Shown in pieces: positions 22,197-37,952 of a DNA stretch of 64,000 bases; positions within the stretch are counted from its first letter, which is position 1; every line of letters starts with the position of its first letter. Below the pieces are notes generated by a model. The model worked only from the letters and a program-made list of their open reading frames with translations, did not search any database and had not been told where the DNA came from. The position numbers were made by a program, and so were the translations under genes. The stretch covers positions 124,001 through 188,000 of the forward strand of contig JAIQEU010000015.1 in assembly GCA_020073665.1 (NCBI GenBank), in the 5' to 3' direction. The stretch is from Terriglobia bacterium (GTDB lineage Bacteria; Acidobacteriota; Terriglobia; Terriglobales; Acidobacteriaceae).

Positions 22197-22644
22197 GGTC
22201 GTTTCTCCCTCTCCAATTAAGAACACCATCTCAAAGCAAGAAGTTTCGTTGCTCCCCTAAGCGCCACAGCTCAGATGTCTTAGGGACCGCATGCGTTCGA
22301 AGAAAAAAGTGCACGATCAGGCAACCTATTGCTTGCGAGGATTCGCTCCGCGCTGCCACGGGTCTATCTCGCAGAAACGCCTTGTCTTCGCCACTGGAAT
22401 CAACCGCAAGAATGTGAAAATGCTTGCCTGGCTCCTGCAGGATCCGGCCCCGTACGCGGCTTTCGAGTTGACATAGTTTCTCATCCGGGAGAAACTCTGC
22501 ACTCGACTGTGGCTGAACCATCGGTGCGCGTCCCCCCGCGGCCTCAGGAAGCGTGATCCTGCCCGCAAGCCTGATTGCTGGAAACGTTTGTTCTGCCTGC
22601 GCAGCTCCGGTCCTGACGCTACTCAATATATTAGGAGGCGTGTT
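22197..22644. other. Long intergenic region without a convincing gene
   Basis: About 450 bases between the divergent FecR/DUF6600 and FG-GAP genes; it must hold both promoters. A minus-strand frame open over 22231-22626 encodes a peptide containing LCQLESRVRGRI, which resembles the start of small BON-like domains, but nothing after it fits. I do not call a gene. The only clear element is the AGGAGG ribosome site at 22633-22638. Confidence 0.4.
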
Positions 22645-24861
22645 TTGAAATCCCGGCGCCCTACTACTACGGCTGTGCGCCGACCGCTGAAGGTTGTAGC
22701 TTGCCTGATCTCACTACAGTTTCTGGTCGGAGCCGCGTTAGCCGCTACTCGCCAATTTCTGGAGGCACCGGAATACGCCACCAACCCCGGCCCCCGTACG
22801 CTGGTTGTGGCCGACTTCAACCGCGACGGCAAGCCTGATATTGCCGCGGCCAACTATTGCGCCCCCGGCTGCATAGGCGGCCTGGGCACGCTTTCCGTAC
22901 AAATCGGCAATGGCGACGGCACCTTCCAAAAGCAAGTGAGCTACGGCCTGGGCGAGCTTCCTCAGTCGATCTCCGTGGGAGACTTCAACGGCGACGGCAA
23001 ACTCGATCTCGCAGTCGTGAATCGCGCCGATACCCGTATGACTCTCGGCCTCAGCATATTGCTGAGCAACGGGGATGGCACGTTTCAGCCTCGCGTGGAC
23101 TATGCCACCGGACAAATCTCTACCGCAGTCGCCGTAGGAGATTTCAACGGCGATGGCAAAGCCGACTTGGCGGTCACCAGCCCCGCTGATTCCGCCGTCG
23201 GTATCCTGCTCGGCAATGGCGACGGCACCTTCCAACCCTATGTCAATTACCCGGCAGGGGCCTATCCCATTCACGTGGCCGTCGCAGATTTCAACGGGGA
23301 CCACAAACTTGATCTGGTCATTCCCGACGTTAATGGCACGAACGTGAACGTCCTCCTCGGCAACGGCAACGGCAGCTTTCAGAGTCCTGTCCCCTACCCC
23401 ACCGGAAAGGCCCCCGACTTCGTTGTCGTGGGAGACGTCAATCGCGACGGCGTATCGGATCTGGTGGTGGCGAACCAAACCAGCTCCGTAAGCATCCTGC
23501 TAGGCCATGGTGATGGCACATTCGGCAATCCCACGAATTACTTCACCGGAAGGGAACCCTGGTTTGCGGCGCTCGGAGATTTGGATGGAGACGGAATCCC
23601 CGACATCGCCGTGGCCGGATTCTATTCCGGTTCGGCGCTCGTGCTGTTAGGCAAAGGCGATGGAACCTTCCGCATCGGTGGCGACTTTGGGACCGGCAAC
23701 GTCCCCTTCGCTGGAACCATTGCAGACGTCAATGCCGACGGAAAAGCTGACCTGCTAGTCGCCAACTTCGATAGCAACTCGGTTGGCGTGCTTATTGGCA
23801 ATGGAAATGGTACCTTCCGCTCGCGGCTGGACTATAGATCGGGCATGCGTCCTCAGTCTGTCGCGGTCGCGGACTTTAACCACGACGGTAATTCCGATCT
23901 GGCAGAAGCCAGTGCGAGCAGCAACACCGTGGGCGTACTGCTGGGCCGGGGCAACGGCACCTTCGCTCAGCGTGTCGATTACCCCACAGGAAGTAAGCCC
24001 TATTCGGTCATCACTGCCGATTTCAACGGCGATGGCGTCACCGATCTGGCTGTGGCAAATTCTGGCAGTGGCACCGTAAGCATCCTTCTGGGCGCCGGCG
24101 ACGGCACGTTCCACTTTCGCCACGACAACATGGTCGGCAGCGCTCCCCAGTTTGTCACCGTAGGTGACTTCAATGGCGACGGCATACCCGACCTGGCAGT
24201 TGCGAACTTCGCTGGCAGTAGCGTGAGCATCCTGCTAGGCAAGGGCGATGGTTCATTCCAGCCCCACATGGATGTCCCCACCGCAGCTCAGCCGCACTCC
24301 ATTGCGGTGGGCGACTTCAACGGCGACGGCAAACTTGATCTGGCCGTTGCCGATTCGGCGCTGTTCGGCAGCGCGGTAAGCATCCTCTTGGGCAAGGGCG
24401 ACGGAACATTCCAACCTCACGCCGACTTGGGAAGCCAGGGCACCCGCTCCATAGCCGTAGGAGACTTTAATGGGGACGGTATATTGGATCTTGCCGTAGT
24501 CCACGTGTCCTCTCTGCAGGTAAGTGTGCTCTTGGGCAAAGGCGATGGCACCTTCCCCACGCACCTGGACTTTCCAATCGAATCGTTCGGCTCGTCCATC
24601 GTGGTAGGCGACTTCAATGGTGATGGCAAGGCTGACTTGGCGGTTACCATCAACGAGGCCGGAAACGGTGACTTCCTCAACGGCGTCGATGTTTTAGCGG
24701 GAAACGGTGACGGCACCCTCCAGCCGTTTGTCGATTACACCACTGGAACCCGTCCGGTCGCCCTTGCCGTTGGAGATTTCAACGGCGACGGTGCCCAGGA
24801 TCTAGCCGTGGCCAACCAGATCGGCCAGACGGTGAGCATATTGCTGAACACCGGAAAATAG
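22645..24861 (+). CDS. Exported FG-GAP/VCBS repeat beta-propeller protein
   Basis: 738 residues from TTG 22645, chosen because a perfect AGGAGG (22633-22638) sits six bases upstream and the resulting N-terminus is a normal signal peptide (RRPLKVVACLISLQFLVGAALA). The rest is 14 FG-GAP/VCBS repeats of about 48 residues. Each has a calcium-binding loop such as VGDFNGDGKLDLAV and a following VSILLGNGDGTFQ. This is enough for two seven-bladed propellers. Likely secreted or surface bound with many Ca2+ ions; ligand unknown. No catalytic domain is present. Confidence 0.93.
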   Translation: MKSRRPTTTAVRRPLKVVACLISLQFLVGAALAATRQFLEAPEYATNPGPRTLVVADFNRDGKPDIAAANYCAPGCIGGLGTLSVQIGNGDGTFQKQVSYGLGELPQSISVGDFNGDGKLDLAVVNRADTRMTLGLSILLSNGDGTFQPRVDYATGQISTAVAVGDFNGDGKADLAVTSPADSAVGILLGNGDGTFQPYVNYPAGAYPIHVAVADFNGDHKLDLVIPDVNGTNVNVLLGNGNGSFQSPVPYPTGKAPDFVVVGDVNRDGVSDLVVANQTSSVSILLGHGDGTFGNPTNYFTGREPWFAALGDLDGDGIPDIAVAGFYSGSALVLLGKGDGTFRIGGDFGTGNVPFAGTIADVNADGKADLLVANFDSNSVGVLIGNGNGTFRSRLDYRSGMRPQSVAVADFNHDGNSDLAEASASSNTVGVLLGRGNGTFAQRVDYPTGSKPYSVITADFNGDGVTDLAVANSGSGTVSILLGAGDGTFHFRHDNMVGSAPQFVTVGDFNGDGIPDLAVANFAGSSVSILLGKGDGSFQPHMDVPTAAQPHSIAVGDFNGDGKLDLAVADSALFGSAVSILLGKGDGTFQPHADLGSQGTRSIAVGDFNGDGILDLAVVHVSSLQVSVLLGKGDGTFPTHLDFPIESFGSSIVVGDFNGDGKADLAVTINEAGNGDFLNGVDVLAGNGDGTLQPFVDYTTGTRPVALAVGDFNGDGAQDLAVANQIGQTVSILLNTGK

Positions 24862-24997
24862 CTCCCGATCGTGAGGATGCGGCGATTTGACCACGTCATG
24901 TTTCTTTGATTAGAAACAGACTTAAGCGCCTACCCTCGGCCATCGTGGTCACAGTCGAGTTCCGAACTCGGATAGAGAACCCGGTCCTAGCCTCGAA

Positions 24998-26241
24998 TCA
25001 AGGCTGGACACCCGCATGAACAGGAATCGCGCCGCGCGCGGCGTTTTTGTAAACCACGCCGCCCTTCATTACAAATACCACCCGCCTCACCGCCGTAATG
25101 TCTTTCAGTGGGTCGCCATCGAGCGCGATGATGTCCGCCTGCAGGCCGGGCGCAATCGTGCCGATCTGATCGCCCATGCCCAGCGCTTCCGCTCCCAGCG
25201 AGTTAGCCGAGACCATCGCCGCCATGGGGTCGACTCCGCAATCGCGCACGCGGTTGATGAAATCCTCCGCATTGCGGCCGTGCGCACCCGCCACCGCGTC
25301 CGTGCCGTAAACCATCTTGAGCCCCGGGATGCGCGCGGCTCGTCGAATGAATTCCTGATGCGCCGGGATCAGCCCTTTCATCGCCGCAAAGCCCTCTTCC
25401 GTATAGTAGGGTGCGGCGAGATACCTGTCCTTGTACTGGAGATAGGTTTCAAGCAACAACCCAGCTTGCGGATCGAGGTACGTCCCGTGTTCAGCCATCA
25501 ATTTCAGATCGGCGTCCGATGCCCCGAGACCGTGCTCGACTTCCGTGCACCCGGCCAAAGTTGCGGCGCGAACTGCATCTCGAAAGGCATGCACGAGCGT
25601 GCGCAGGCCCTGTTTCCTGGCTTCATCACAGGCCGCGTTCAATTGCTCTTGTGACATCGTCATCGCGCCCCGGGTCATGCCCCCGGATGCGTAGATCTTG
25701 ATCAGGTCCGCCCCTGCTTCCTTTTGTTTCCGCACGAAGGCGCGGATCTCCTCCGGCGTCCCCGTCTGCTCGCCGCGCCCCGCGAGCGCCTCCGCAGCCG
25801 TCAGGATGCGGGGGCCGGGGAGCAGGCCGTTCGCGATGGCGTCACGCAAGGGAACGTCAACGGGCGAACCGACGCTTTGGACGGTGGTGAATCCTGCCAT
25901 TAACGTCAGCCAGGCATTCGAGGCGGAGGCATACGCACTCGCCGGTGTTGTTCCTCCTTGTCCAGCATTTTTGCCGTCCGGCCCAAAGCTCCAGGTGATG
26001 TGCACGTGCGCGTCAATCCAACCCGGCAATGCCGTCAGGCCACGCAAGTCGTAATCCACCGGCCCAGCCTTCGGATCAATGGCCACAATTCTCGAGCCCT
26101 CGACCACGATGCGAGTGTCGTGCAGCATGTGGCCCTTGCCATCGAGCACCGTGTTCGCGGCAATCACGATGCGTCTGTTCTGCGCCGGCGTCTGCGAAGA
26201 AATGCGTTGTGTCAGAGTAAAGACGCCAATAAGTACGGATA
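24998..26241 (-). CDS. Amidohydrolase (imidazolonepropionase-like / prolidase-like), 5' end lost
   Basis: Metal-dependent amidohydrolase. The metal site HVHITW follows LTALPGWIDA; other ligands are in LIKIYASGG (the bridging Lys), LVHAFRD, VEHGLGA and MVYGTDAVAGAHG. The C-terminal strand QADIIALDGDPLKDI closes the composite domain. The N-terminus SVLIGVFTLTQRISSQTPAQ looks like the end of a signal peptide, but no start codon precedes it before the sequence turns into the divergent Rhs gene. The frame stays open to an ATG at 26323 that lies inside Rhs coding and gives nonsense. The gene therefore seems to have lost its first codons at about 26240. Confidence 0.85.
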
Positions 26242-26244
26242 ACC

Positions 26245-29200
26245 ATGAGGGATGGAACCGTGATTCACCCCTTGGTGATGGACGGCGGCAACAATGTCGC
26301 GGGTGGGCCCAACTATACCGCAACCGACTCCAACGGCAACCGCATAACCGTTACCACTCGGAGCACGACCAGCTTCCAAATTGATCATGTCACAGACAAC
26401 TATGGGACCTCGGTACTGACTTCCACAGGTGGTGTGCCAACTCCCGGAATTTCCTTCACCTACACAAGCCCATCCGGAGTGGCCGCACCTGTAGTGGCGA
26501 CGTACATTACGAAGACCGTCCAAACAGCCTTCGGTTGCCCCAACTCGGTCGCATTCTCGGAGAACAACGACTACTTGCTGGATCGAGTGACATTGCCGGA
26601 TTCTTCGTATTATCAGTTCACTTACGAAGCCACGTCTTCAGGAAGTAACAATACGAATGCTCGTCTGAAGCAGGTCAGGCTGCCTACTGGCGGCACAATA
26701 ACCTATACCTACACGGGAGGGGATACCGGCAAGGGTATTTCCTGTATCGATGGAAGCACCATGGGATTCGACCGCGCCACTCCGGATGGGACGTGGCACT
26801 ACAGTCGGGTGGTGAACAGTTCCTCAGGCAACACGATAACCAGCTCAACCACGACTGTGACCGATCCCCAGGGAAATGTAACTGTGACTGACTTTTACAA
26901 AGGATTCGAGGTGCAGCGCAAAGTGTACCAGGGAGGGGCATCAGGCACGCCCCTCGAGGAAGTGGCCACCTGCTACAACGGAAACCTGGATCCAACGCTG
27001 TGTCCCACCGCTACGGTTCCAACGACAGGCATTACAGAGGTGACGGTATTCCGCAGGCTCAATGGAGGCCCGTGGGCCGAGACGGACACTGTCTACAACA
27101 GCAACTTTTCAAACGGATCCGGTGGTCTGGTGACGGATGCCTACGTGTACGACTTCGGTGCCTCTAGCCCCACTCGCCATACGCACATCGACTATGACAC
27201 TACCTTGGGGAATGGCATCGTTGACCATCCGTCCGTTGTGACCGTGACCGACGGGAGCGGGAACCTCAAGGCGAAGACGGAATATACCTACGATGAGGAC
27301 CAAGGCTCATTGCAAACGTCCGGCGCGGCCTCGCTTGTGGCAGTAAGCTGCACTCCGGGTTTCAGCAAGTGTCGCGGAAACGCTACGACCGTCAAGCGCT
27401 ACGTGACGGCAAGTTCCTATCTGACCAGCACAGCCATACATTACGATACCGGTCAGGTTTACCAGGCTACCGACGCGAACGGAGCGCAAACACGTTTCAC
27501 GTATGGCAACTGCGGACACAGCCTTCTCACCAACGCACTCAGTGTTCCGTTCAATTTCTCCACATCCTTTACGTGGAACTGCGTAGGTGGAGTGACGACC
27601 TCCTCCACTGACGCGAACGGCAGTATTTCCTACGTCAACTACACGACCGACCCGGATTTTTGGCGTCCCGAAAGCTCAAAAGATCCGCTACTGAACATCA
27701 CACACTTTACATACACAAGCTTGGTCAAGAGCGAGGGCTACCTCAACTTCAACAGCACGACTTCAACTGTGGATGGCCTCAGTCAGTTGGATTCCCTGGG
27801 TCGCTCGCAGTACACGCAACAGAAACAGGCGCAAACGGCGACCAACTACGACACCGTGAAACAGGTGTACGACAGCCTCGGGCGGCCATACCAGACCACG
27901 GTGCCGTATGTTGCCACTGCCGCCTCGCCAGGTCCGCCGCAGAATACGCCCATCTCCTCGACGACCTACTACGACGCGATGAGCCGCCCCACTCAGGTCA
28001 TTGATGGCGGCGGAGGAATCGCAAATCTTACCTACAACCAGAATGACGTGTACCGGGAAATCGCGCCGGCCCCTACCGTGCCACCCGCTCCGGCCTCGGA
28101 GAACACCAAGCGCAGCCAGATGGAGTACGACGGACTGGGTCGCTTGATCTCCGTATGTGAAATCAACGGCGGTAACCAGAACGGGCCGTGCAATCAGCAT
28201 GCTGGCGCCACTGGTTACTGGACTCAATACAGCTATGACACTATCGCCCCCTCCTACAATTCGCTGATTGTCACCCAGAACTCGCAGGCGGGAGGCGGAA
28301 CTTCTCAAAGCCGAACCTACGTTCACGACATGCTGGGGCGGTTGACCTCGGAGACAAATCCCGAGAACGGGCAAACCCAATATTTCTACGACTCCGCGCC
28401 GTCGACTCCGGGCGTGGCTTGCCCCGGTCCATACAACGGCGATCTGGTGAAAAAGTATGATGCGCAGGGGAATACGATCTGCTACACCTACGATGCCCTG
28501 CATCGGCTCACCAGCGTCACGTATCCCGCCGGGCCAAACCACTCCAGTAGCGACCCGAAATACTTTGTGTATGACGCGGCGACGGCCGGTGGTTACAGTC
28601 TCTTAAACACAAAAGGGCGGCTGGCAGAGGCATACACCTGCCCGTCTTCAGGCTCATGCACTCCGAAGAAGACAGACCTCATTTTCAGCTATTCGGCGCG
28701 AGGGGAAGTTCTCGACACATACGAGTCCACTCCCCATTCGGGAACACCCTATTATCACGTGAGTGCCTCCTACTGGGCTCACGGAGCCGTAAACGCGCTG
28801 GGAAGTAATTTGACCGGCCTCCCGACGTTCTATTATGGCGCGACCAATGGGGTGGGCTTGGAGGGAGAAGGACGAGTCACCAGCGTCACGGCGTCGTCGG
28901 GGCAGAATCCAGTGACAGGCGTCACTTACACGACCGCGAACGGAACTGGGCAGCCAATTGGATCACTGACTCAGGTCGTTCTGGGTTCGGGTGACAAGGA
29001 CACCTTCAGCTACGATCCGAATACCGGTCGTTTGCTCCAGTACAACTTCATCGTTGGCGCGACTCCGCAAACCGTGCAGGGCAACCTCACCTGGAACGCA
29101 AACGGCACGCTGGCCAAGCTGGCGATTACGGACCCCTTCAACACCGTAAACAATCAAACCTGCACGTTCGGCTATGACGACTTGGCCCGCTCCACGAGCG

Positions 29201-30639
29201 CCAACTGCGGGTCCTCCTGGAGCCAGACCTTCAGCTTCGATCCCTTCGGCAATGTCACGAAGACCGGTACGAGTTCGTTCCAGCCAGGGTATGACCAGGC
29301 AACGAACAAATTCCTGTCCTTGCCAGGCTTGAGCTACAACAACAACGGCGACTTGAACAACGACAGTTTCAATACCTACACTTGGGATTCGGAGAACAGA
29401 CCGGTATCGGTGGACACGGTGAACCTGACGCTCGACGCCTTTGGACGAATGGTGGAGCAGGCGAGGGGCACGAGCTATACTCAGATCGTGTATGGGCCCG
29501 GCGGTGGTAAGCTGGCGCTTATGACCGGGCAGACACTCTCGAAGGCGTTTGTTCCCTTGCCTGGCGGAGGAACCGCGGTGTACGGATCGACGGGGACGCT
29601 GGCCTATTACCGCCACGCGGACTGGCTGGGGAGTTCACGCTTTGCCTCCACACCGACCCGGACTAAATATTTCGACGTGGCGTATGCTCCGTATGGTGAG
29701 GACTACGCAGACTCGGGAACAATGGACCTGGATTTCACCGGGCAGAATCAGGACACGGTTTCAGGACTGTACGATTTCCTCTATCGTGAATATCATGCGG
29801 TTTCGGGACGTTGGATTAATCCCGACCCGGCGGGGCTCGGGGCGGTAAGCTTGACGAACCCGCAGACGTGGAACAGGTATGCCTACGTGTCCAACAATCC
29901 GCTGTCTGCGGTTGACCCTCTTGGCCTAATTCGATGCTGGGGAACGGATTGCCCGCAGCGACTCGGCGTTGGGAGCGGAAACTCCGGCGATTTTCCGTCG
30001 CAGGAATGTGTGGTGGAGGGCGTCGACACAGATTGCGGGTTGCTCTCCGGCTTCCTGCAAGATGGCGCGGCGGCGGTGTGTCCAAATAACTACTGCGGAG
30101 CCCGTACGGTTGTTGGCCCCACGGGAGACGCCGAACTGGCGACCGTTTCTTATACGGCGGAGGGCTTTTCTTACGACTACGTGGGCCTCAGAAGTCAGTT
30201 CAGCGGCCGAGACTATGATTTTCTTGTCGAGGCACTTGGACTGCCTGACTCTCCAACCAAGGATCTACATTTAAAGCCAACCAAGGACTTCTGTGACATG
30301 TACGCTCGTCATATCGACTACACAATCATTGGTCGGAATGGCGGTAAAGTATTGGGAGATTACTATGTGCATGAAGTCATTCTTCAGCCGACAGGCAGCA
30401 CATTTACAGGTCAGCCAGACAAGAACGGATTCCACGATACCATAACTGTTGGGTTAGGAATTCCACCAATAACACAGGTTCAGAGTTTCATGATTGCACT
30501 CAAACCCAAGGATTCAGGATCTTTAATTCCGATAGAGCGAATGATCAATGGCCATACGGTTAGTTTGAACGCTCAGACAATCGTAAAAGAATATCCGACA
30601 ATTAGAGTAGCAGGAACAAAGGGGGACAATTGCGAATAA
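26245..30639 (+). CDS. Rhs/YD-repeat protein lacking its N-terminus, with non-core C-terminal tail
   Basis: 1464 residues of YD/Rhs repeats (YTYDALHRLTSVTYPAG, MEYDGLGRLISV, FGYDDLARSTSA). They end in the Rhs core DFTGQNQDTVSGLYDFLYREY, then YAYVSNNPLSAVDPLGL near residue 1227. The 235 residues after this hallmark are unrelated to the repeats and more AT-rich, as in polymorphic-toxin tips, but I recognise no toxin domain. No signal peptide or N-terminal plug is present. The frame opens after a stop at 26230 and already reads like interior Rhs (TMRDGTVIHPL), so the 5' part is missing. The last codons overlap the next gene. Confidence 0.88.
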   Translation: MRDGTVIHPLVMDGGNNVAGGPNYTATDSNGNRITVTTRSTTSFQIDHVTDNYGTSVLTSTGGVPTPGISFTYTSPSGVAAPVVATYITKTVQTAFGCPNSVAFSENNDYLLDRVTLPDSSYYQFTYEATSSGSNNTNARLKQVRLPTGGTITYTYTGGDTGKGISCIDGSTMGFDRATPDGTWHYSRVVNSSSGNTITSSTTTVTDPQGNVTVTDFYKGFEVQRKVYQGGASGTPLEEVATCYNGNLDPTLCPTATVPTTGITEVTVFRRLNGGPWAETDTVYNSNFSNGSGGLVTDAYVYDFGASSPTRHTHIDYDTTLGNGIVDHPSVVTVTDGSGNLKAKTEYTYDEDQGSLQTSGAASLVAVSCTPGFSKCRGNATTVKRYVTASSYLTSTAIHYDTGQVYQATDANGAQTRFTYGNCGHSLLTNALSVPFNFSTSFTWNCVGGVTTSSTDANGSISYVNYTTDPDFWRPESSKDPLLNITHFTYTSLVKSEGYLNFNSTTSTVDGLSQLDSLGRSQYTQQKQAQTATNYDTVKQVYDSLGRPYQTTVPYVATAASPGPPQNTPISSTTYYDAMSRPTQVIDGGGGIANLTYNQNDVYREIAPAPTVPPAPASENTKRSQMEYDGLGRLISVCEINGGNQNGPCNQHAGATGYWTQYSYDTIAPSYNSLIVTQNSQAGGGTSQSRTYVHDMLGRLTSETNPENGQTQYFYDSAPSTPGVACPGPYNGDLVKKYDAQGNTICYTYDALHRLTSVTYPAGPNHSSSDPKYFVYDAATAGGYSLLNTKGRLAEAYTCPSSGSCTPKKTDLIFSYSARGEVLDTYESTPHSGTPYYHVSASYWAHGAVNALGSNLTGLPTFYYGATNGVGLEGEGRVTSVTASSGQNPVTGVTYTTANGTGQPIGSLTQVVLGSGDKDTFSYDPNTGRLLQYNFIVGATPQTVQGNLTWNANGTLAKLAITDPFNTVNNQTCTFGYDDLARSTSANCGSSWSQTFSFDPFGNVTKTGTSSFQPGYDQATNKFLSLPGLSYNNNGDLNNDSFNTYTWDSENRPVSVDTVNLTLDAFGRMVEQARGTSYTQIVYGPGGGKLALMTGQTLSKAFVPLPGGGTAVYGSTGTLAYYRHADWLGSSRFASTPTRTKYFDVAYAPYGEDYADSGTMDLDFTGQNQDTVSGLYDFLYREYHAVSGRWINPDPAGLGAVSLTNPQTWNRYAYVSNNPLSAVDPLGLIRCWGTDCPQRLGVGSGNSGDFPSQECVVEGVDTDCGLLSGFLQDGAAAVCPNNYCGARTVVGPTGDAELATVSYTAEGFSYDYVGLRSQFSGRDYDFLVEALGLPDSPTKDLHLKPTKDFCDMYARHIDYTIIGRNGGKVLGDYYVHEVILQPTGSTFTGQPDKNGFHDTITVGLGIPPITQVQSFMIALKPKDSGSLIPIERMINGHTVSLNAQTIVKEYPTIRVAGTKGDNCE

Positions 30640-31403
30640 AAGGGCTCCGCGTTGGTCGGCTAGTTGCGTCCGGTGTAGCCCTTTGTGCTGTCGCCATTTT
30701 CTCGTTGTTTTTGTTTCAGGGAGTCCGCATCAGACTTAAGGCCCAACGACTATTGTCGGAGGTTCGATCAATTCGAGTAGGAGATGAGAACTTGCACGCG
30801 GTTCGCCTGCTTGCACAAGAGTATGGCGCCGATTTGCCAGACGAGCGGAGCTGTCTAGTTAGTTCCTGCGCCATCAAGATTGGGATTACCAACGAGGAGT
30901 TGGCGAGGTTTAGCTTCTTACCGCTACCGCGGGCAGCCCTTGGAGTAGCTTTTTTTATCAACAAGGGTCGCACTGTACATTTGGGGCTGGAACTACTCTC
31001 GGAGCGGCGAGGCTTTTCATACTACTTTCAACGTCTGATTTATGGAAATGCGGATGAAATCGTCAGCGTTGCCAGCGTTGAGGATGATTCTAATGGTTCC
31101 GAATATTACGACGTAGGCGACGGTTACAAGGTGCTGTTCGGGGGCCAAGATGCTGGGGGACATCCCAAAAAGGTGGTTGTTCATCTTACGCCTAATGTTG
31201 ACGCGATTAAGAGAAATGAGGCTTTTGACTTAAACCTACACTGCCTAAGTTGGATCTGGGGCTGTCGAGATGCAAGCGAATTGTTACCAGCTGTATGGAA
31301 GAATGCGCACCACCCTGGCTCCGAAGTACTTGGATCACAAGTGACCTTTCTAGTCCGGAGCGCGAGCATCAACGGTAAAAAAGAGAAGAATAGAGGGAGC
31401 TGA
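30630..31403 (+). CDS. Membrane-anchored protein of unknown function, coupled to rhs
   Basis: 257 residues from TTG 30630, which overlaps the rhs stop by ten bases and follows GGGGG at 30621-30625. One N-terminal membrane helix (LVASGVALCAVAIFSLFLFQG), then a soluble domain with paired Cys (SCLVSSCAI and CLSWIWGC). Not recognised. Base composition is AT-richer than flanking genes, like the rhs tail. Tight coupling to an Rhs tip suggests a cognate partner such as an immunity protein, but membrane anchoring and lack of family evidence leave this open. Confidence 0.6.
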   Translation: MRIKGLRVGRLVASGVALCAVAIFSLFLFQGVRIRLKAQRLLSEVRSIRVGDENLHAVRLLAQEYGADLPDERSCLVSSCAIKIGITNEELARFSFLPLPRAALGVAFFINKGRTVHLGLELLSERRGFSYYFQRLIYGNADEIVSVASVEDDSNGSEYYDVGDGYKVLFGGQDAGGHPKKVVVHLTPNVDAIKRNEAFDLNLHCLSWIWGCRDASELLPAVWKNAHHPGSEVLGSQVTFLVRSASINGKKEKNRGS

Positions 31404-31442
31404 TTGAAGTTCCACATTAACCGTGTTCGCCACTTCTCGTCA

Positions 31443-31573
31443 TTGGGGTAGGAAAGGGCAGCCCGGGCTTCTGGTCCAAGTTTACCAAAGCCTTGGGAGA
31501 GGCCAAAGGCGTGCTAGATTTGGGACTGTCTGGCGCTTTGGTGCTTAACTGCGCGCGCGGGGCGGCGCACTAG
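31443..31573 (+). pseudogene. Possible orphan Rhs-tip or toxin fragment
   Basis: A short open stretch without its own start, ending at TAG near 31571, encodes a peptide containing KGSPGFWSKFTKALGEAKG and ALVLNCARGAAH. It is more GC-rich than its neighbours. It looks like the C-terminal end of a larger protein, as seen when alternative tips are stored behind an rhs gene. This is inference from position and composition only. Confidence 0.25.
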
Positions 31574-31587
31574 GTGCGAGGTCCGAA

Positions 31588-31887
31588 ATGGATCTAATCG
31601 AGTTTACTTTGCGCCTGATAACATGGAAAGTGGTAGCTCGAATAGCGTTCGGAACCGCTTATTTGAGCTTGTGCATTTGGACGGTTCGAAATCGTTGGCG
31701 CGGTTTCCGTCGGACAAAACGTCATATCTTAGTTACTGCGCTAGAAGTGAGTGTGCTTCTTCCTGTTGATCGCGTTCATGGTAGTTCTCTTCAGACTTTG
31801 AAGCCGTCAGCGAACGGGGGTATCGTACAAATATCGATCTGGTTTCTGCTGATACAGGTCTTGCGGAGCCGGGTACCTAGCTTCTGA
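31588..31887 (+). CDS. Small hydrophobic protein, hypothetical
   Basis: 99 residues from ATG 31588 with a GCGAGG site seven bases upstream. Two or three hydrophobic segments (VVARIAFGTAYLSLCIWTV and IVQISIWFLLIQVL) separated by an Arg-rich loop (RNRWRGFRRTKRH). No family recognised. It sits between the rhs-linked gene and the SBBP gene in AT-rich DNA. May be a real small membrane protein or a decayed gene. Confidence 0.4.
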   Translation: MDLIEFTLRLITWKVVARIAFGTAYLSLCIWTVRNRWRGFRRTKRHILVTALEVSVLLPVDRVHGSSLQTLKPSANGGIVQISIWFLLIQVLRSRVPSF

Positions 31888-31924
31888 GCTTTCGAGTAGC
31901 GTCACAGACCGACAATGTATCGCT

Positions 31925-34736
31925 ATGATGAATCGATCATCCCCAGTCGCGCCGTTCTTTCTTCTGTTTGGAGTAGCGATCGCATCAACTGTCTTCGCCA
32001 ATCAACAATCGCTCCCTAGCGTTTCGTCTCACGGAGCGGGAGGGACATGGGCTGCTCAGGAGTCCTTGCACCGGCTCAAGACGCCGAATCCATTTGAATT
32101 GAACGTCGGCCAGACGAGTTCAGAAGCAACCTACCTCTTTCGCGGGCGTGGCTACACATTGTTCTTGACCCAGACGGGAGTGCTCGCGACGATTCGCTAC
32201 CCGGATCTACCCCGACACGAAGATCCCCATGGATCGCGTCAGAGCGATTGTTTTCCAGAATCAAGCGCCAGATTGTCATCAACGAACTGCGTAAATCGTT
32301 TCGGCACCTTCCGCATGATCCTGATTGGCTCGAACCCTGAGGCAACACCGAGAGGCAGGGATAGGCTGTCGGCGTACACAAACTACATGCGCGGTCAGGA
32401 TCCTAAGAAATGGCACGTCCACGTGCCGCAGTTTAACCAAGTTTGGTACACCGGTATTTATCCCGGAATCGATCTTGTGTACTACGCGAGCGGGGGTCAG
32501 CCGGAATATGACTTTGTGGTTTCTCCTGGGGCGCATCCTGAGGTAATCGGGTTTTCGATCGAGGGTGTGGACGAGTCTGTGCGCTCGGTCGTGTCTCCAA
32601 CCGGGGACCTGGTGCTTACCGGTACCCGCGTAGGTCCTGTTCTGCGAAAGCCCCTGATTTACCAAGGCAGCGGGTGCGTCGTAGGGAGCTCTGGAGAAGG
32701 AAGCCCAAGCAGGCCCAACTCGCGCTGCAGTCTCCTTGCCGGCGGGAAGTTCGTTCTGAAGCAGAGAAATTCGACTTCAGCCTTGCAGGTTGGCTTCGAC
32801 TTACCTCAGTACGACCGGACGGAACCCCTGGTGATCGATCCAGCGTTTAGCTTCTCGACATACTTCGGTGGCAGCATTAGCGATGGCGCCAACGCAATGA
32901 CCATCGACTCTTCCGGGAACATTTACCTGTTTGGCGGAACCAATTCTCCAGACTTCCCCCTGACGCCTGGGGCGTTCCAGACGAGTTTGAGCGGGATGGG
33001 TGACCTCTATGTGTCCAAGTTCAGCTCGGATGGGTCAAAACTGATCTACTCAACGTTGCTCGGTGGGAACGGTCCCGACGAAGCCCGCGCCATCGCGGTC
33101 GATTCTTCAGGCAACGCTTACTTGGCCAGTCAAACGTTCTCGACTGATTTTCCCATTGTCAATGCGTTTCAACCAACGGCGATCGTGCCCTCAGTCGTCT
33201 TATCGAAGCTGAGTCCGGATGGATCGGCCCTGATATTTTCAACCTACGTGGGGAACGGCACCCAGCCGTCTGGAATTGCGGTGGATAACGGCGGGGAGGC
33301 CATTGTGACAGGTATCGCGGGTGCCGGCGCCATTCCGATCGTCAACGCGCTACAGCCGGTTCACGGGGCGGATGGAGGATATTTTGACGGCTTCATAACC
33401 AAATTCGACTCCTCTGGGGGGGGTTGCCCTCGATCCCCAAGGGAATATTTATGTTGCTGGACTTGCGCCTTCCACAGACTTTCCAGTTACTCCGGGTGCA
33501 TTTGAAACAACCTGTGTGATCGCCTTGGGCACCTGCCACGGCTCATTTGTTTCAAAGTTCAGTCCATCGGGTACCACCTTGCTCTATTCGACGTATCTCG
33601 ATGGTGGTGAGGTTGACGCGGTCGCTGCTGATCCTGCGGGAGAGGCCATAGTCACGGGGAGGGTTGGCGAATCGACCGGCTTCCCCATAACGCCAGGATC
33701 GTTTCAGACGGTTCAGGGCGGGGGCGCCTCTCTCGATGCGTTCGTCACCAAGTTCAGAAGCGATGGGTCCGGCCTTATTTACTCGACATTTCTCGGCGGG
33801 AGCAGCTTTGACTACGGCAATGCGATACTAGCTGACGCAACCGGAAACGCCTACCTGGCGGGAGATACGCAGTCGCCCAATTTTCCCGTCCAGAACCCGC
33901 TGCAAGCGAATTATGCGGGACAATTCGATGCCTTTGTTTCTGAGTTGGATAGCTCCGGCTCGCAGCTAGTTTTCTCCACGTATCTCGGAGGCGGCAGCGG
34001 AGGATTCGGTAATGAGCACGCGGACGGAGTTGCCCTGGACGCTTCCGGGAACATTTATGTAGCGGGATTTACGGACGCAGCCGATTTCCCCACCGTCAAC
34101 GCATTCCAACCGCAATTGCGTGGCTTCACTAATGCCTTCATGTCCAAGATCGTCCAGGGGCCGGATTTTGTGATTTCAGCCCCGTCGGATTTCGCCACAG
34201 TCAATGCGGGTGGAAAGGCTACATATTCCCTTAGTGTGACGCCGGTAAATGGCTTCAATCAGAGCGTCAACTTGTCCTGTGCGGGTGCGCCGTCCGGCGC
34301 AACCTGCAGAGTCTCGCCGAATTCCGTTGCTCTCGACGGAATACACTCGGCTCCTGCGACAGTCACCGTTAGCACGACTGGCAGTTCGGTTGCTGCGCTT
34401 TCGATGATGTCTGATCCAACGCGGCCAAGCGACAAACGCTCAAACGGGCTAGGCGGCGTTGCACGAATGCTCACGCTCGTGGTTTTCCTTGGATTTCCTC
34501 TGGGAGCCTCCGTTGGCAAGGGGCGTAGGCGCTGGAGAAGTATCCTGGCGGTCTTTGCGGTTTTCTGCGCCTTCTTTTTTCTCGCATCCTGTGGAGGAGG
34601 AGGTTCAGGAGGTGGGGGAGGCAATCAAGGTCCCCCGACTCCGTCGGGTACTTACCCAATTACGGTGACAGGGAGCGCCGTGTCCAGCCAAGGTACGTTG
34701 AGTCATCCCGCCCAATTGACGCTGGTCGTCAACTGA
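31925..34736 (+). pseudogene. SBBP beta-propeller repeat protein, frame broken in a G8 tract
   Basis: Two frames form one gene: 31925-33505 (ATG start, leader VAPFFLLFGVAIASTVFA) and 33424 onward to 34736. The N-terminal domain reads NPFELNVGQTSSEATYLFRGRGYTLFLT, typical of acidobacterial surface proteins. SBBP blades follow (STYFGGSISDGANAMTIDSSGNIYLFGGT). At G8 (33416-33423) one extra G shifts the frame: with seven G the protein continues as GVALDPQGNIYVAGL into the second part. The C-terminus has an Ig-like domain (FNQSVNLSCAGAPSGATCRVSP), a hydrophobic segment, then a Gly-rich CGGGGSGGGGG stretch. Sequencing error, slippage variation or decay are all possible. Confidence 0.82.
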
Positions 34737-34944
34737 CTGGGCCGCTCCATTTGCACTTGACGTTTTTATTCGGCCAGACTTTATCCAGGTTTTAGTGCGT
34801 GCTGCTAAAGTTAATTAAGAAACTCATCTCTAAAGTTTTCTCTAAATTTAAGTCCCCTTTGTTTAGGGCCTTTATGAAATTATCATACACTAGCATGTGT
34901 GACACCGAAACAACTGCAAGAACATCCTGGAAGATCGGGAGGCC
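34737..34944. promoter_or_regulatory. AT-rich spacer with candidate promoter for the integrase-region genes
   Basis: About 200 bases markedly richer in A/T than the window average. A possible promoter is TTGTTT (34859-34864) and TATCAT (34881-34886), 16 bases apart, ahead of the winged-helix gene at 34945. An alternative is TTGACG (34757-34762) with TTTATC (34780-34785). The change in composition may mark the left part of an acquired segment. Confidence 0.35.
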
Positions 34945-35187
34945 ATGACTAAATCTCATGTGTTGACGATATTCTCAAGAAGCGGTAGGTTCCTAAGACC
35001 GGACGATGTGTGCAACCTGCTAAGGCCAATTCCCGACCGGCGCTCCTTTTATAGCTATCTCGGGCGGCTCCAAAGGCAGGGTCTGCTAGAACGATACCCG
35101 AACTCCCGGAGAGGCCACCTAGCCTATCGCTTGACCGCTCGCGGACAGGCCCGATTGGAATACCTACGTCGTTCAGGTACGAGCTAG
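34945..35187 (+). CDS. Small winged-helix DNA-binding protein
   Basis: 80 residues. The order helix-helix-recognition helix-wing is readable: FLRPDDVCNLLRPIPDRRSFYSYLGRLQRQGLLERY, then GHLAYRLTARGQARLEYL, like PadR/MarR-type wings. Start ATG 34945 has GGGAGG only two bases upstream, so initiation may be weak. Probably a regulator of the mobile segment; the perfect palindrome at 35231 just downstream is a plausible binding site, but this is untested. Confidence 0.6.
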   Translation: MTKSHVLTIFSRSGRFLRPDDVCNLLRPIPDRRSFYSYLGRLQRQGLLERYPNSRRGHLAYRLTARGQARLEYLRRSGTS

Positions 35188-35230
35188 GCGGAGCAGTCTT
35201 CCCATACCGAGGAGGTCCCCCTCAGCCTCT

Positions 35231-35258
35231 CTAACGTTACGTACGTACGTAACGTTAG
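35231..35258. repeat. Perfect 28-bp palindrome
   Basis: Positions 35231-35244 (CTAACGTTACGTAC) are exactly the reverse complement of 35245-35258, with no spacer. It is built from ACGT/AACGTT steps and lies between the winged-helix gene and the promoter of the gene at 35374. With no loop, it is a better fit to a dimeric protein site or cruciform than to a terminator. Confidence 0.85.
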
Positions 35259-35338
35259 CAGCATGTCCGGGTCGATAGCCCTCCAGGCTTCTGCGGCGCG
35301 ATTTCCCGAATTGAATCGGATCCCACATGTCATGTGTA

Positions 35339-35366
35339 TTGTGCATTTACACATTTTATGTATACT
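35339..35366 (+). promoter_or_regulatory. Candidate promoter for the coiled-coil/winged-helix gene
   Basis: TTGTGC (35339-35344) and TATACT (35361-35366) are 16 bases apart. The ATG at 35374 lies eight bases after the -10, so transcription would begin at or just before the start codon and the mRNA would be leaderless. No ribosome site precedes the ATG, which agrees. Confidence 0.45.
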
Positions 35367-35373
35367 ACTTGAC

Positions 35374-35874
35374 ATGGCCACCAAGAACTATCACCGCGCC
35401 TTATTCGACGCCGAGCAGGACTTGGCGCGCTGCTTAGTGCAACGCCAGAAGATCGATCACAAAATGGCTCGGCTCCAGGCTGTCGTCAGCCATTTGCAAA
35501 ACCTTTGCGCCGATCTGGACCGAAAGCACTTCGAGAAACGCGTTGAACGCGTCGTGAAGGCAGGCCTGACGGTGGGAGTCACGGACCTAGCGCGTGCCAT
35601 CCTGAAAGAGACGTTCTTTGCCATGACTGCAGGCGACCTCAAGAAAAGCATGGAAGCGAGAAAGCTCGACTTGTCCAGGTACTCGAATCCCTTGGCTGTG
35701 ATCCACACTGTGCTCAAGCGGCTAGTACAAAGCGGTGAGGTGAGAGTGGTTCCGCAGAAAGCGGGCCGGAAGTCTTATCAATGGGTCAGCACCACAGACA
35801 AGTTGTTGTCCGAGTTACGGCAGACGAGTCAACCAACCGCCCAGCGGCGTGGCGGTTTGAAGGAGTCCAGGTGA
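35374..35874 (+). CDS. Coiled-coil plus winged-helix-like protein of an integrative element
   Basis: 166 residues from ATG 35374; upstream in-frame codons fall in the promoter. Residues about 5-55 form a heptad-like helix (LARCLVQRQKIDHKMARLQAVVSHLQ). Residues about 60-150 resemble a winged-helix domain found in acidobacterial hypothetical proteins (TVGVTDLARAILKE, MTAGDLKKSMEARKLDLSRYSNPLAVIHTVLKRLVQSGEV). Probably DNA-binding; no established function. Its stop overlaps the next GTG by four bases (GTGA). Confidence 0.6.
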   Translation: MATKNYHRALFDAEQDLARCLVQRQKIDHKMARLQAVVSHLQNLCADLDRKHFEKRVERVVKAGLTVGVTDLARAILKETFFAMTAGDLKKSMEARKLDLSRYSNPLAVIHTVLKRLVQSGEVRVVPQKAGRKSYQWVSTTDKLLSELRQTSQPTAQRRGGLKESR

Positions 35875-36245
35875 AACCTTTATTGGCGAATCGAGGCTTA
35901 CGACTGTTTCCGTGTTGTGTTTGCGGCGAGGGACGCGAGGTGCGGACGACGAAGAAAGGCAAGCCTTATCTGATCTGCGATCCCTGTGGCGTGCAGATGT
36001 TTGTGAGGGTCGAAACCGGGATTCGACGGTTCGAACAGCTAGTGGCGGACGCTGATCGAAACCATATCTGGAAGCGCCTGGCAGATTTGGAGCAGCGCTA
36101 TCAATTGCAGTGCCCTCGATGCGGCAAGAAGTTTTGGTTGACCACCGAACTGATCAAAACCAGTTGGATGAACGGGACGTTGGAAGGTTATCGGTGTCCC
36201 GAGGCAGAGTGCGGCGGAATCGCCAAACCGGGGAAGGCCGCATGA
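35871..36245 (+). CDS. Double zinc-ribbon protein, hypothetical
   Basis: 124 residues from GTG 35871, supported by AAGGAG at 35860-35865 and the overlap with the previous stop. First ribbon: FPCCVCGEGRE to LICDPCGVQ. Second: LQCPRCGKKFW to YRCPEAECGG. A helical linker (RIRRFEQLVADADRN-like) joins them. Zinc ribbons of this type bind DNA or protein. The family is not recognised. The stop overlaps the next start (ATGA). Confidence 0.6.
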   Translation: MKPLLANRGLRLFPCCVCGEGREVRTTKKGKPYLICDPCGVQMFVRVETGIRRFEQLVADADRNHIWKRLADLEQRYQLQCPRCGKKFWLTTELIKTSWMNGTLEGYRCPEAECGGIAKPGKAA

Positions 36246-36343
36246 AACTGACATTGTTGGGGATGCTCGTAATCCTCGGAGTCGTGGCGTTGATAGTCTC
36301 TATTGCAACACTCCAGTGGGACAGCGTTGTTGCAGAGAACTGA
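36242..36343 (+). CDS. 33-residue predicted membrane peptide
   Basis: ATG 36242 overlaps the zinc-ribbon stop as ATGA. It encodes one hydrophobic helix (LTLLGMLVILGVVALIVSIA) and a short polar tail with WDSVVAEN, ending TGA at 36343. Translational coupling and a clean membrane helix support a real gene; function unknown. Confidence 0.5.
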   Translation: MKLTLLGMLVILGVVALIVSIATLQWDSVVAEN

Positions 36344-36359
36344 TAAGCGGGGAATGAGC

Positions 36360-36599
36360 ATGACGACCAACCCAGAACGCGAACCCTTTGTTGACGCAGT
36401 AGAGGCGGGGGAGTTTCTACACTTACGCCCGCGTCGCGTCTTGGAACTGGCACGCCGGGGCGAAATCCCTGCTTATCCGCTGGGACAAGGTAAACGACGG
36501 GTGTGGCGGTTTCGGCTTTCCGAGGTTGCGGATGCCATTCGCGCACGCAGTGTAGACTATCCACGGCAGTCTCCCGCGCCAAGACAGGAGACGACCTAA
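36360..36599 (+). CDS. Excisionase-like helix-turn-helix protein
   Basis: 79 residues with an Xis/MerR-type winged-helix: PFVDAVEAGEFLHLRPRRVLELARRGEIPAYPL, then KRRVWRFRLSEVADAIRAR. ATG 36360 gives proper spacing from GGGG at 36349-36352; ATG 36354 is too close to it. It ends two bases before the integrase ATG, so it is likely the directionality factor or repressor of that integrase. Confidence 0.75.
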   Translation: MTTNPEREPFVDAVEAGEFLHLRPRRVLELARRGEIPAYPLGQGKRRVWRFRLSEVADAIRARSVDYPRQSPAPRQETT

Positions 36600-36600
36600 A

Positions 36601-37800
36601 ATGGCGCGGTTTCAACGTGGAAGTTTGCGGATTGAACCCCGCAAGAATGGACAAACTTGGGTGCTGCGTTACTTCGTAACCCGACCATTAGACTCCCGGA
36701 GGGTCGAGCACAAGATAGCCGTTGGCCTTGTGCGCGACTTCCCTGCCGAGTCCGCTGCCTGGGCCGAAGTGGAGAGGCAACATCTGCAATCGCAAATTAA
36801 CAGATCGGACTTCAGGGGCCGGGTAACGTTCGCGGACTTGGTTCAGCATTACATGCGGCATGAACTAGACGAGCAAACGGAAGCGGTTGACCCCAAGTCC
36901 CACACCACCATTGCGGGCTACAGGCGCATTCTGAAGAACCGTTGTCTGGATCGATGGGGAAAGCGGACTGCGCTGGGCATTCAACCGCTGGAAATCGAGC
37001 AGTGGTTGAAGGCTATCAAGCGTGAAGAGCAGTTGGAAAACCCCACGCTCGACAAAATACGGCGCGTGATGAGCCTCGTCTTCAAACACGGGCAACGCTA
37101 CGGACTGATTCCTCGTTCGGAGGAATCGAACCCGCTGCGCTTTGTCCGCTGTAAGACGACGAGCGACTACGAAGCTATGATTCTGACTCCACAGCAGGCA
37201 TTCGTTGTATTGATGCAACTGAAAGAGCCGGAGAGGACCCTGACACTGCTGGCCGCAAGCGCTGGCCTGAGAATCTCCGAGTGCTTGGGATTGCAGTGGC
37301 AGGATGTCAGCTTCGCAGAATCGACCATTAGCGTACGTCGTACTTGGACCTGTGGCCGGGTCGGAATACCAAAGAGCAAGGCTTCACATGCGCCGGTGCC
37401 GCTTCATCCGCTGCTGGCTGAGTTCATGCAAGAGTGGAAGAACACAACCTCGTACTCTGGGCCAGAGCACTGGGTGTTCGCTTCCTTCAAGCTAAAAGGA
37501 CGGCAGCCACGGATAGCCAACATGCTGGTGGAAGACCATCTCCGCCCAGCAGCAGTCAGGGCGGGCGTGCTAAAGGAAGGGGAGAAAGTACGTTTCGGGT
37601 TCCACAACCTGAGACACAGCCTGGCTTCTTTCCTAGTGCGCTCGAAGACCGACCCCAAGACGGTGCAGGCTTTGCTCCGGCATTCCGACGTAAAAACCAC
37701 CCTGCAACTGTACGCGCACAGCGTCAGCGAAGACAGGATGGCGGCACAGGGAGAAATGCTCGAAGCCATCCTGCAATCGAGCAGCGCAGCGGTGAACTGA
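36601..37800 (+). CDS. Tyrosine-family site-specific integrase
   Basis: 399 residues. An N-terminal arm-binding region (about 1-60), a SAM-like core-binding domain (FADLVQHYMRHEL to PLEIEQWLKAIKREE) and a catalytic domain are present. Catalytic residues visible: Arg in ASAGLRISECLGLQW, Lys region KSKASHAPVPLHP, HNLRHSLASFLV (HxxR), His in LLRHSDVKTTLQLY and Tyr in that last motif. All are present, so the enzyme looks active. Its stop is 77 bases from the 3' end of tRNA-Phe, the usual arrangement for integration at a tRNA 3' end. Confidence 0.92.
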   Translation: MARFQRGSLRIEPRKNGQTWVLRYFVTRPLDSRRVEHKIAVGLVRDFPAESAAWAEVERQHLQSQINRSDFRGRVTFADLVQHYMRHELDEQTEAVDPKSHTTIAGYRRILKNRCLDRWGKRTALGIQPLEIEQWLKAIKREEQLENPTLDKIRRVMSLVFKHGQRYGLIPRSEESNPLRFVRCKTTSDYEAMILTPQQAFVVLMQLKEPERTLTLLAASAGLRISECLGLQWQDVSFAESTISVRRTWTCGRVGIPKSKASHAPVPLHPLLAEFMQEWKNTTSYSGPEHWVFASFKLKGRQPRIANMLVEDHLRPAAVRAGVLKEGEKVRFGFHNLRHSLASFLVRSKTDPKTVQALLRHSDVKTTLQLYAHSVSEDRMAAQGEMLEAILQSSSAAVN

Positions 37801-37876
37801 GCACAGGGCACCGAATCATGTGCTGACACTGGGCTGGAGGGGCTTTCGATGATTCGCCGTAACTGGTTGCAAATGA

Positions 37877-37952
37877 TGGTGGCCAGGGACGGAGTTGAAC
37901 CGCCGACGCCAGCCTTTTCAGGGCTGCGCTCTACCACCTGAGCTACCTGGCC
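37877..37952 (-). tRNA. tRNA-Phe (GAA)
   Basis: A 76-nt gene with CCA encoded. On the minus strand the acceptor GGCCAGG pairs with CCTGGCC. The D-arm starts TAGCTCAGG, the anticodon stem CAGCC/GGCTG holds loop CTGAAAA with anticodon GAA, and the T-arm is GGCGG-TTCAACT-CCGTC. It faces away from the integrase and is the probable attachment site. Confidence 0.95.

Follow-up and report, generated by a model that had tools for sequence, protein, structure and literature searches.

A recombination-and-control module with a conserved palindrome, the probable end of a tRNA-integrating genomic island in Terriglobia

Six small genes beside tRNA-Phe form one end of a probable island

We examined a 64,000-nt stretch (the window) of a Terriglobia bacterium genome (GCA_020073665.1, contig JAIQEU010000015.1, positions 124,001–188,000 of the forward strand; contig C2 in our analysis), in which six plus-strand genes, A80, B166, C124, D33, Xis and Int (34945–37800), precede the sole tRNA-Phe gene of the 5.42-Mb assembly (G000). 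The interval 34.88–37.95 kb is best explained as the recombination-and-control end of a tRNA-integrating genomic island, with proposed regulation and with cargo lying beyond it, a reading to which we assign a probability of about 0.78. A first-pass annotation had described 34857–37952 as a complete compact element with unusual cargo. Homology among relatives stops at a palindrome or at gene A and six delimited relatives span 9–15 kb, indicating that this 3-kb interval is one end and not the whole element; the small genes are the conserved part, with variable DNA beyond, and 'control module', a possibility raised in the same annotation, therefore suits them better than 'cargo'.

The tyrosine integrase Int (36601–37800, 399 aa; PF00589 3.1e-25, phrog_1 1.5e-52) is open over all 399 codons and ends 76 bp from tRNA-Phe(gaa) (37877–37952, minus strand; tRNA call and Rfam), the integration target, whose 3' end faces it. 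Only one other match to this tRNA occurs in the assembly (76%, contig C4). Xis (36354–36599) is an HTH_17 excisionase-like protein (PF12728 1.6e-8, phrog_66 7.8e-6) located 1 bp from Int and 10 bp behind D33 (36242–36343), a 33-aa peptide with a single transmembrane (TM) segment and the motif M[KR][IL]TxxG. The D33 start overlaps the stop of C124 (35871–36245, GTG start) by 4 bp (ATGA), and the C124 start overlaps the stop of B166 (35374–35874) by 4 bp (GTGA), while A80 (34945–35187) ends 186 bp upstream of B166. The six genes and the intact integrase at tRNA-Phe had thus been correctly recognized, and the four genes said to overlap or touch resolve into overlaps of B, C and D followed by short gaps to Xis and Int. 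A 28-bp palindrome in the A–B gap had been missed.

Int and Xis belong to clear families, as annotated; the winged helices of A and B come from weak profile and fold matches. A80 is a small, PadR-like putative regulator (PadR 6.6e-4, under the Pfam cut-off) in a family of 11 members with 27 invariant alignment columns. The AlphaFold2 model of B166, a putative DNA-binding regulator, combines a long coiled coil, with a helix of ~80 residues, and a winged helix (mean predicted local distance difference test score, pLDDT, 77.8); its best Foldseek match was Zur (E 9e-4), followed by LmrR, Fur and PadR domain types. C124, a double zinc-ribbon protein, is modelled as two strand-rich Cys4 ribbons linked by two helices (pLDDT 88). 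Its fold search gave no PDB match below E 0.001 (best E 0.042), and neither the window C124 nor D33 matched a curated family over the cut-off. Sub-threshold Pfam matches of C124 include GpA_ATPase and Lar; assignment to a known zinc-ribbon regulator was tried and rejected, the weak matches being spread over many ribbon families with none over the cut-off.

Conservation of the gene string in relatives

Relatives were sought for Int in 100 genomes (E<=1e-20) and for B (E<=0.01) and C in 300 genomes of the family, the own genome included throughout; loci and genomes are labelled L and G, G308 being the closest relative. The integrase is not a fixed chromosomal gene in relatives (had it been one, the annotation's proposal would have been refuted by its own criterion): 52 of the 100 genomes hold a match, and one of the 99 others has a full-length relative above 50% identity. 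Twenty-seven of the 30 best-hit integrase loci (L009–L038, own included) contain a tRNA gene (Phe, Val, Asp, Glu, Met, Asn, Ala or Ser). Elsewhere in the own assembly, a fragment of a second integrase (G000:C33:1850-2257, L079), which shares 71% identity with Int along 136 aa, is located 1.6 kb away from a tRNA-Asn gene. Homologues of B were found in 88/300 family genomes, most of them ~30% identical (47–76% in five others), and those of C in 34/300, spanning most of the length of C in 14/300.

These 14 genomes provided 17 full-length-C loci, to which two met through the palindrome (L195, L199) were added, for a total of 19 in 16 genomes. At 15 of the 19, C is followed by an integrase on its own strand; in the exceptions the contig ends at C (L162) or 0.8 kb past it (L164), no integrase occurs within 3.3 kb (L165), or it is on the opposite strand (L199). 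Xis was recognized at 11/19 loci, a tRNA gene (Phe, Ser, SeC or Ala) beside the downstream integrase likewise at 11/19, and a D-like single-TM peptide behind C at 12/18 (L162 is outside this count), with one row deviating at the M[KR][IL]TxxG start; by this recurrence in sequence, D33 is a genuine gene. The whole A-B-C-Xis-Int order recurs at tRNA-Phe in L150 and L152, from another genus, where the L150 D frame no longer codes for a TM peptide and L152, compared with L150, has a 166-bp deletion spanning B and C. The expectation that the string would recur next to different tRNA genes holds for the core C-D-Xis-Int, found at tRNA-Phe, Ser, SeC and Ala, and fails for B, which joins the string only at Phe-type loci and L151.

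Ratios of nonsynonymous to synonymous substitution (dN/dS, NG86 method) for A, B, C, Xis and Int against L150, L151, L152 or L080 (13 comparisons) were 0.065–0.24 overall at dS 0.5–2, with 0.065–0.095 for A, 0.17–0.23 for Xis and 0.07 for Int. By these codon comparisons the gene families of the module are under purifying selection, and together with the order conserved in L150 and L152 this makes the gene string more than chance, in support of the earlier proposal that the small genes are one conserved unit of a mobile element at tRNA-Phe.

The unit also reassorts. L151 has kept B (64%) and C (77%) with a distant integrase and has A between D and Xis; in L080, Xis-Int (Int 79%) stands behind a B-like end without C; and in L154 and L155, B adjoins Xis-Int without C. 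The regulator slot between the palindrome and C is variable, holding B, an XRE gene with a 204-aa protein, or a zinc-finger protein. Kept across islands are C, Int and the palindrome, and in most of them D and Xis.

The module is found in full form only in one family of Acidobacteriota (Terriglobia). A C profile run on 376 genomes across the phylum (E<=1e-8, at most 11 candidates scored per genome) recovered full-length C only in the own genome, with partial matches in four other genomes, one of them of the same family. Within the genera of two relatives, close DNA copies of their modules occur in 3/45 and 2/24 genomes, query genome included, counts that detect close copies only and in which one match is a 181-bp remnant. 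With the 14/300 family genomes above, the distribution is sporadic and not fixed.

A conserved palindrome marks the module side of the border

The perfect palindrome CTAACGTTACGTACGTACGTAACGTTAG (35231–35258) is the longest of eight perfect palindromes of at least 14 bp in the window, and its core was not matched, even with three mismatches allowed, in 100 shuffled versions of the window. A match of at least 20/24 bases is present at 18 of the 19 full-length-C loci (16/17 without L195 and L199) versus none of the 13 integrase loci in which full-length C is missing (best match there, 17). When 398 family genomes were scanned with the 20-bp core (up to two mismatches), 24 sites appeared in 20 genomes, 16 of them with full-length C nearby and five with other module genes or remnants (a broken C with Xis-Int; the pair of XRE and 204-aa genes; A with a zinc-finger gene, twice; and a remnant of the 204-aa gene). 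The exact palindrome, sought in one genome per species over 84,980 species, had 11 matches, ten of them acidobacterial (labelled Terriglobia, Acidobacteriaceae, Acidobacteria or Ca. Sulfotelmatobacter) and one in Aurantibacter, where no adjoining integrase-like open reading frame (ORF) was seen by eye. IMG/VR held no exact copy.

Across 23 oriented sites, a set that excludes L161 and the three sites lacking module genes, the cargo-side half is nearly invariant and the mirror half varies at positions 19 (A 17, T 6), 23 and 24. An RNA hairpin or intrinsic terminator was considered and rejected as the main constraint: the sequence can fold, but the arms pair in 81.0% of cases across sites against 80.3% when shuffled, a value reached in 162 of 500 shuffles, and the covariation score, above most shuffles, was still reached by 56 of 500. 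Since pairing does not exceed that of shuffles and no terminator-like site was found, a DNA site is favoured. Near several palindromes we also observed a second putative regulator family that ends 34–78 bp from the site (L164 1315–1917, L163 9262–9921, L196 8353–8907, L198 from 8676, L191 2090–2659); it has a C-terminal CxxCG and, in several members, RGRP near the start, and the one member scanned had no Pfam match.

In islands of the XRE type (G028, G162, G121, G308:C38), ungapped identity is mostly 0.5–0.7 over 220 bp on the module side of the palindrome and 0.2–0.4 on the cargo side. BLAST blocks run from the palindrome to the tRNA in L156/L158 and L163/L160, and the L156/L153 block starts at the palindrome. 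In islands of the A type, identity continues through A to its start codon (the block between L150 and the window ends at 34945; L165/L166 likewise). Three comparisons thus place the end of identity at the palindrome and two place it at the A start, with variable cargo beyond. These islands raise a concrete question, namely why a 24-bp site that hardly varies should stand exactly where the constant recombination module gives way to variable cargo.

Two further sites lie upstream of the regulators. The first, TTATCATACACTAGC followed by a GTG-rich half (34880–34901, plus strand), precedes A80; its shorter form TTATCATACAC has eight copies in the 1.50 Mb of DNA examined against 0.7 expected, each no more than 170 bp upstream of an A homologue and the L155 copy reversed. 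The exact TTATCATACAC is absent at 3/11 A loci, of which L152 is one base off, L151 is without it and L199 has a contig end inside the site. This would be a promoter or operator of A80. The second, an AT-rich block ahead of B166 (CATTTACACATTTTATGTATACT, 35326–35367, plus strand), emerges from an alignment of the window with L150, L152 and L151 and is a possible promoter or operator; a simple promoter scan did not call it. In 22.0–38.5 kb, Rfam recognized nothing but the tRNA.

Attachment repeats, extent of the island and cargo

Repeats of the attachment (att) site were found for 7 of the 15 relatives' modules tested. At tRNA-Phe, the G308 island measures 14.4 kb (63-bp repeat). At tRNA-Ser(gct), islands of 10.0 kb (G162, 40 bp), 14.3 kb and 12.2 kb (G121 and G028, both 23–24 bp) were delimited, and one of 9.2 kb at tRNA-SeC (G204, 23–24 bp). 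A second G028 island at tRNA-Ser(tga) (15.4 kb, 23–24 bp) is of an A-B type without C and palindrome, and a 5.8-kb island at tRNA-Val (G145) has a single-ribbon relative of C and no palindrome. Copies of 42–50 bp on relatives' contigs suggest that the att core in the window is the 3' part of the tRNA-Phe gene (37872–37921, about 46–50 bp), and 40–60-bp partial copies of tRNA-Phe occur in at least 15 of 60 genomes.

Copies of the tRNA-Phe att lie 9.7 and then 3.6 kb apart in G116:C231 (L249), and 3.5 and 6.9 kb apart in G027:C17 (L248), a contig without a full tRNA match, spacings that would fit tandem or very small islands sharing that site. G028 has a copy of the 5' end of tRNA-Ser at a distance of 11 kb (L153 9391–10554, L205 3435–3474), and a second integrase, facing the opposite way, adjoins that 5' end; this tRNA gene is apparently used from both ends. 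The 5.8-kb G145 island encodes an HQH-motif protein resembling HUH Rep (L169 6630–7310) next to an ORF that looks RNase H-like by eye.

The left limit of the window island is tentative. A Smith-Waterman search for the far att over contig C2 up to the tRNA scored 19 at best, against shuffle maxima of up to 20 (30 shuffles), and a 12-bp match at 34397 was dismissed as chance level. The 5' side of tRNA-Phe is syntenic in 9/21 relatives, whereas a comparison of 14 genomes on the 3' side revealed one shared gene pair, a contrast in favour of an island. The genes left of tRNA-Phe in relatives hardly match one another, and on contig C2 they matched nothing beyond a few scattered paralogues. Homologues of a FecR/DUF6600 gene (20304–22229) shared no other window neighbour in eight stretches.

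On the plus strand, genes from 22588 to 34736 are probable cargo: an FG-GAP protein (22588–24861) and an RHS protein (26245–30639), both by Pfam; a 257-aa ORF (30630–31403); and an SBBP protein in two ORFs (31925–33505 and 33516–34736), by Pfam. The cargo type leads us to guess a left limit at 22.5 kb, and, judging from how large the relatives' islands are and what they carry, this one may measure up to 15 kb. All twelve 1-kb bins of 26–38 kb have a G+C content of 0.50–0.58, against 0.57–0.66 in the flanking bins; by this measure the dip begins at 26 kb, not 22.5 kb. Pfam identifies RHS proteins in the cargo of G162 and G204, and RHS-like giants were seen by eye in G121 and G028; G308 carries STAS, SpoIIE, HATPase, GGDEF and response-regulator genes. 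The window RHS protein has a tail of more than 200 aa after its DPLGL motif, and the 257-aa ORF (TTG start) begins 10 bp inside its end, the layout of a polymorphic toxin with a neighbouring immunity gene, which the pair may represent. The split of the SBBP beta-propeller protein reflects a frameshift or an assembly error.

Proposed mechanism and alternative explanations

We propose that Int, helped by Xis, recombines the 46–50-bp core in the 3' part of the tRNA gene, and that integration would keep the tRNA gene intact and leave a partial copy at the far end. Small DNA-binding regulators may keep the C-D-Xis-Int operon off: A and B in the window, and in relatives the XRE and 204-aa proteins or the zinc-finger protein in the exchangeable slot. 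For the palindrome, the likeliest role is sequence-specific binding of a factor that these islands have in common, the best candidate being C, given that it and the palindrome occur together. D would be a translationally coupled membrane peptide, and the 6–12 kb past the palindrome (or past A) would be exchangeable cargo in which RHS-type giants are frequent. Since neither conjugation genes nor phage structural genes were recognized, transfer would need a helper. The far att, found for relatives including G308, was not found here, and for this reason we call the window copy truncated or locked; it is probably immobile, excision by the usual reaction being unlikely without the far att even though the genes are open.

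The same absence of a far att and of synteny on the left would be expected if the interval were the leftover integration end of a larger, otherwise deleted prophage or conjugative element, and in some relatives a partial tRNA copy is separated from the tRNA by 39–111 kb of one contig, so that this site may also serve larger islands. We regard this as unlikely: the delimited islands with the module are of 9–15 kb, 16 proteins of three of them had no Pfam match to relaxases, type IV secretion systems or phage structural families, plasmid and phage records contained no C, and viral contigs yielded no confirmed relative of C or A. An addiction or maintenance pair, in which zinc-ribbon C (with B) restrains the hydrophobic D and loss of the island is penalized, would suit the ATGA coupling of C and D and the conservation of a TM peptide across islands at different tRNAs. 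It is made quite improbable by the persistence of C where D is not recognized and by the lack of a toxin or antitoxin family matching the window C or D in Pfam and PHROG scans (the padloc library was not searched).

A different role for the palindrome has also to be weighed. The core site of a tyrosine recombinase consists of two arms about a short centre, and the 28-bp sequence, which lies where module and cargo meet, can be read in this way, with arms of 11 bp and a centre of 6 bp. It might then be a docking or exchange site through which a fixed tRNA-side module (palindrome, exchangeable regulator, C, D, Xis, Int) swaps cargo by a C- or Int-dependent reaction, a way of loading cargo that, if true, would be distinct from integrons and from homologous recombination. 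The homology blocks of L156/L158, L156/L153 and L163/L160 start or end within ~3 bp of the palindrome with no alignable cargo past it, the neighbouring 204-aa ORF ends inside it, and a few palindromes have a module remnant or no module. However, one palindrome was found per delimited element, with no cassette between two copies; A-type homology passes through it to the A start; G308 and G166 share both module and cargo, and no case of nearly identical modules with differing cargo was found. The same picture would arise from selection on the last functional site of the module, and we give the exchange site little credence.

Several observations weigh against the genomic-island reading that we prefer. 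The far att copy that the annotation had suggested looking for was not found by DNA search of the whole own assembly, so that the mobility and extent of the window copy are matters of inference; no att repeat was found for 8/15 relatives' modules in the DNA examined, and four of the six 9–15-kb islands are delimited by exact repeats of just 23–24 bp. G+C content is an unreliable island marker, the G162 island being GC-richer than its flank. Among the genes, D was not recognized at 6/18 C loci and B homologues are widespread without C. The palindrome-C counts use related loci, L195 and L199 having been found through the palindrome itself; the C locus L161 is without a good palindrome, and one of the 13 comparison loci, L080, begins so near Xis that a palindrome could not be seen in it. 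A reversed control pattern gave 19 sites in 11/398 genomes (nine in one genome), and 3/24 palindrome sites lack an adjoining module gene, two being 95%-identical copies in one genome and the third ~205 bp from tRNA-Val; some palindrome sites may accordingly be chance.

Comparison with known elements

An intact tyrosine integrase beside a tRNA 3' end, as expected of a tRNA island, is present, and the far-end direct repeat of the tRNA 3' end was not found in the own genome. Pfam scans of 14 window proteins and 16 proteins of three delimited relatives gave no relaxase or type IV secretion match that would indicate an integrative and conjugative element (ICE) or integrative mobilizable element (IME) (oriT was not searched for), and no packaging or capsid family over the cut-off that would indicate a prophage or phage satellite (cos and pac sites were not searched). 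ICEs such as ICEBs1 are controlled by an XRE repressor and an anti-repressor (ImmR/ImmA). The Ser-type relatives resemble this in that their XRE gene and its partner diverge from the recombination operon; the 204-aa partner differs in having no Pfam match and no HEXXH by eye, and the window has A and B instead.

IMEs, or hitchers, are defined in the part of PMC11389934 drawn on here by their origin of transfer, a relaxase being optional; the window island is like them in its chromosomal integration and in having no mating-pair genes of its own recognized, and no relaxase was recognized in it (oriT again being outside the search). Tycheposons, given in PMC10872708 and PMC11389934 as elements of 4–200 kb in marine and freshwater bacteria and as proposed phage satellites, are likewise tRNA-bordered and carry a tyrosine recombinase and cargo (PMC10872708), but the portions of these two accounts used here mention no palindrome or C-D operon. 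GInts, as outlined in the relevant part of PMC5385486, possess a ginABCD operon with three integrases and share with the window island a tripartite plan of a conserved recombination operon at one end, variable cargo and a far end, and with the relatives' islands site-specific integration and flanking direct repeats. Unlike the GInts of that outline, the window has one integrase and no ginABCD operon, and has instead an HTH_17 Xis, a zinc-ribbon protein, a membrane peptide, winged helix-turn-helix regulators, the palindrome and a tRNA target.

The mobile DNA of Acidobacteriota, a common soil phylum, is hardly represented in the literature that we searched, and we found no description of the control module in the open literature (most subscription papers lie outside that search). 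The element is best classed as a variant of tRNA-integrating islands, without recognized transfer genes and with a control module that we have not found previously described, whose C family and palindrome together provide a searchable signature for small islands carrying RHS-type giants or signalling cassettes in several genera.

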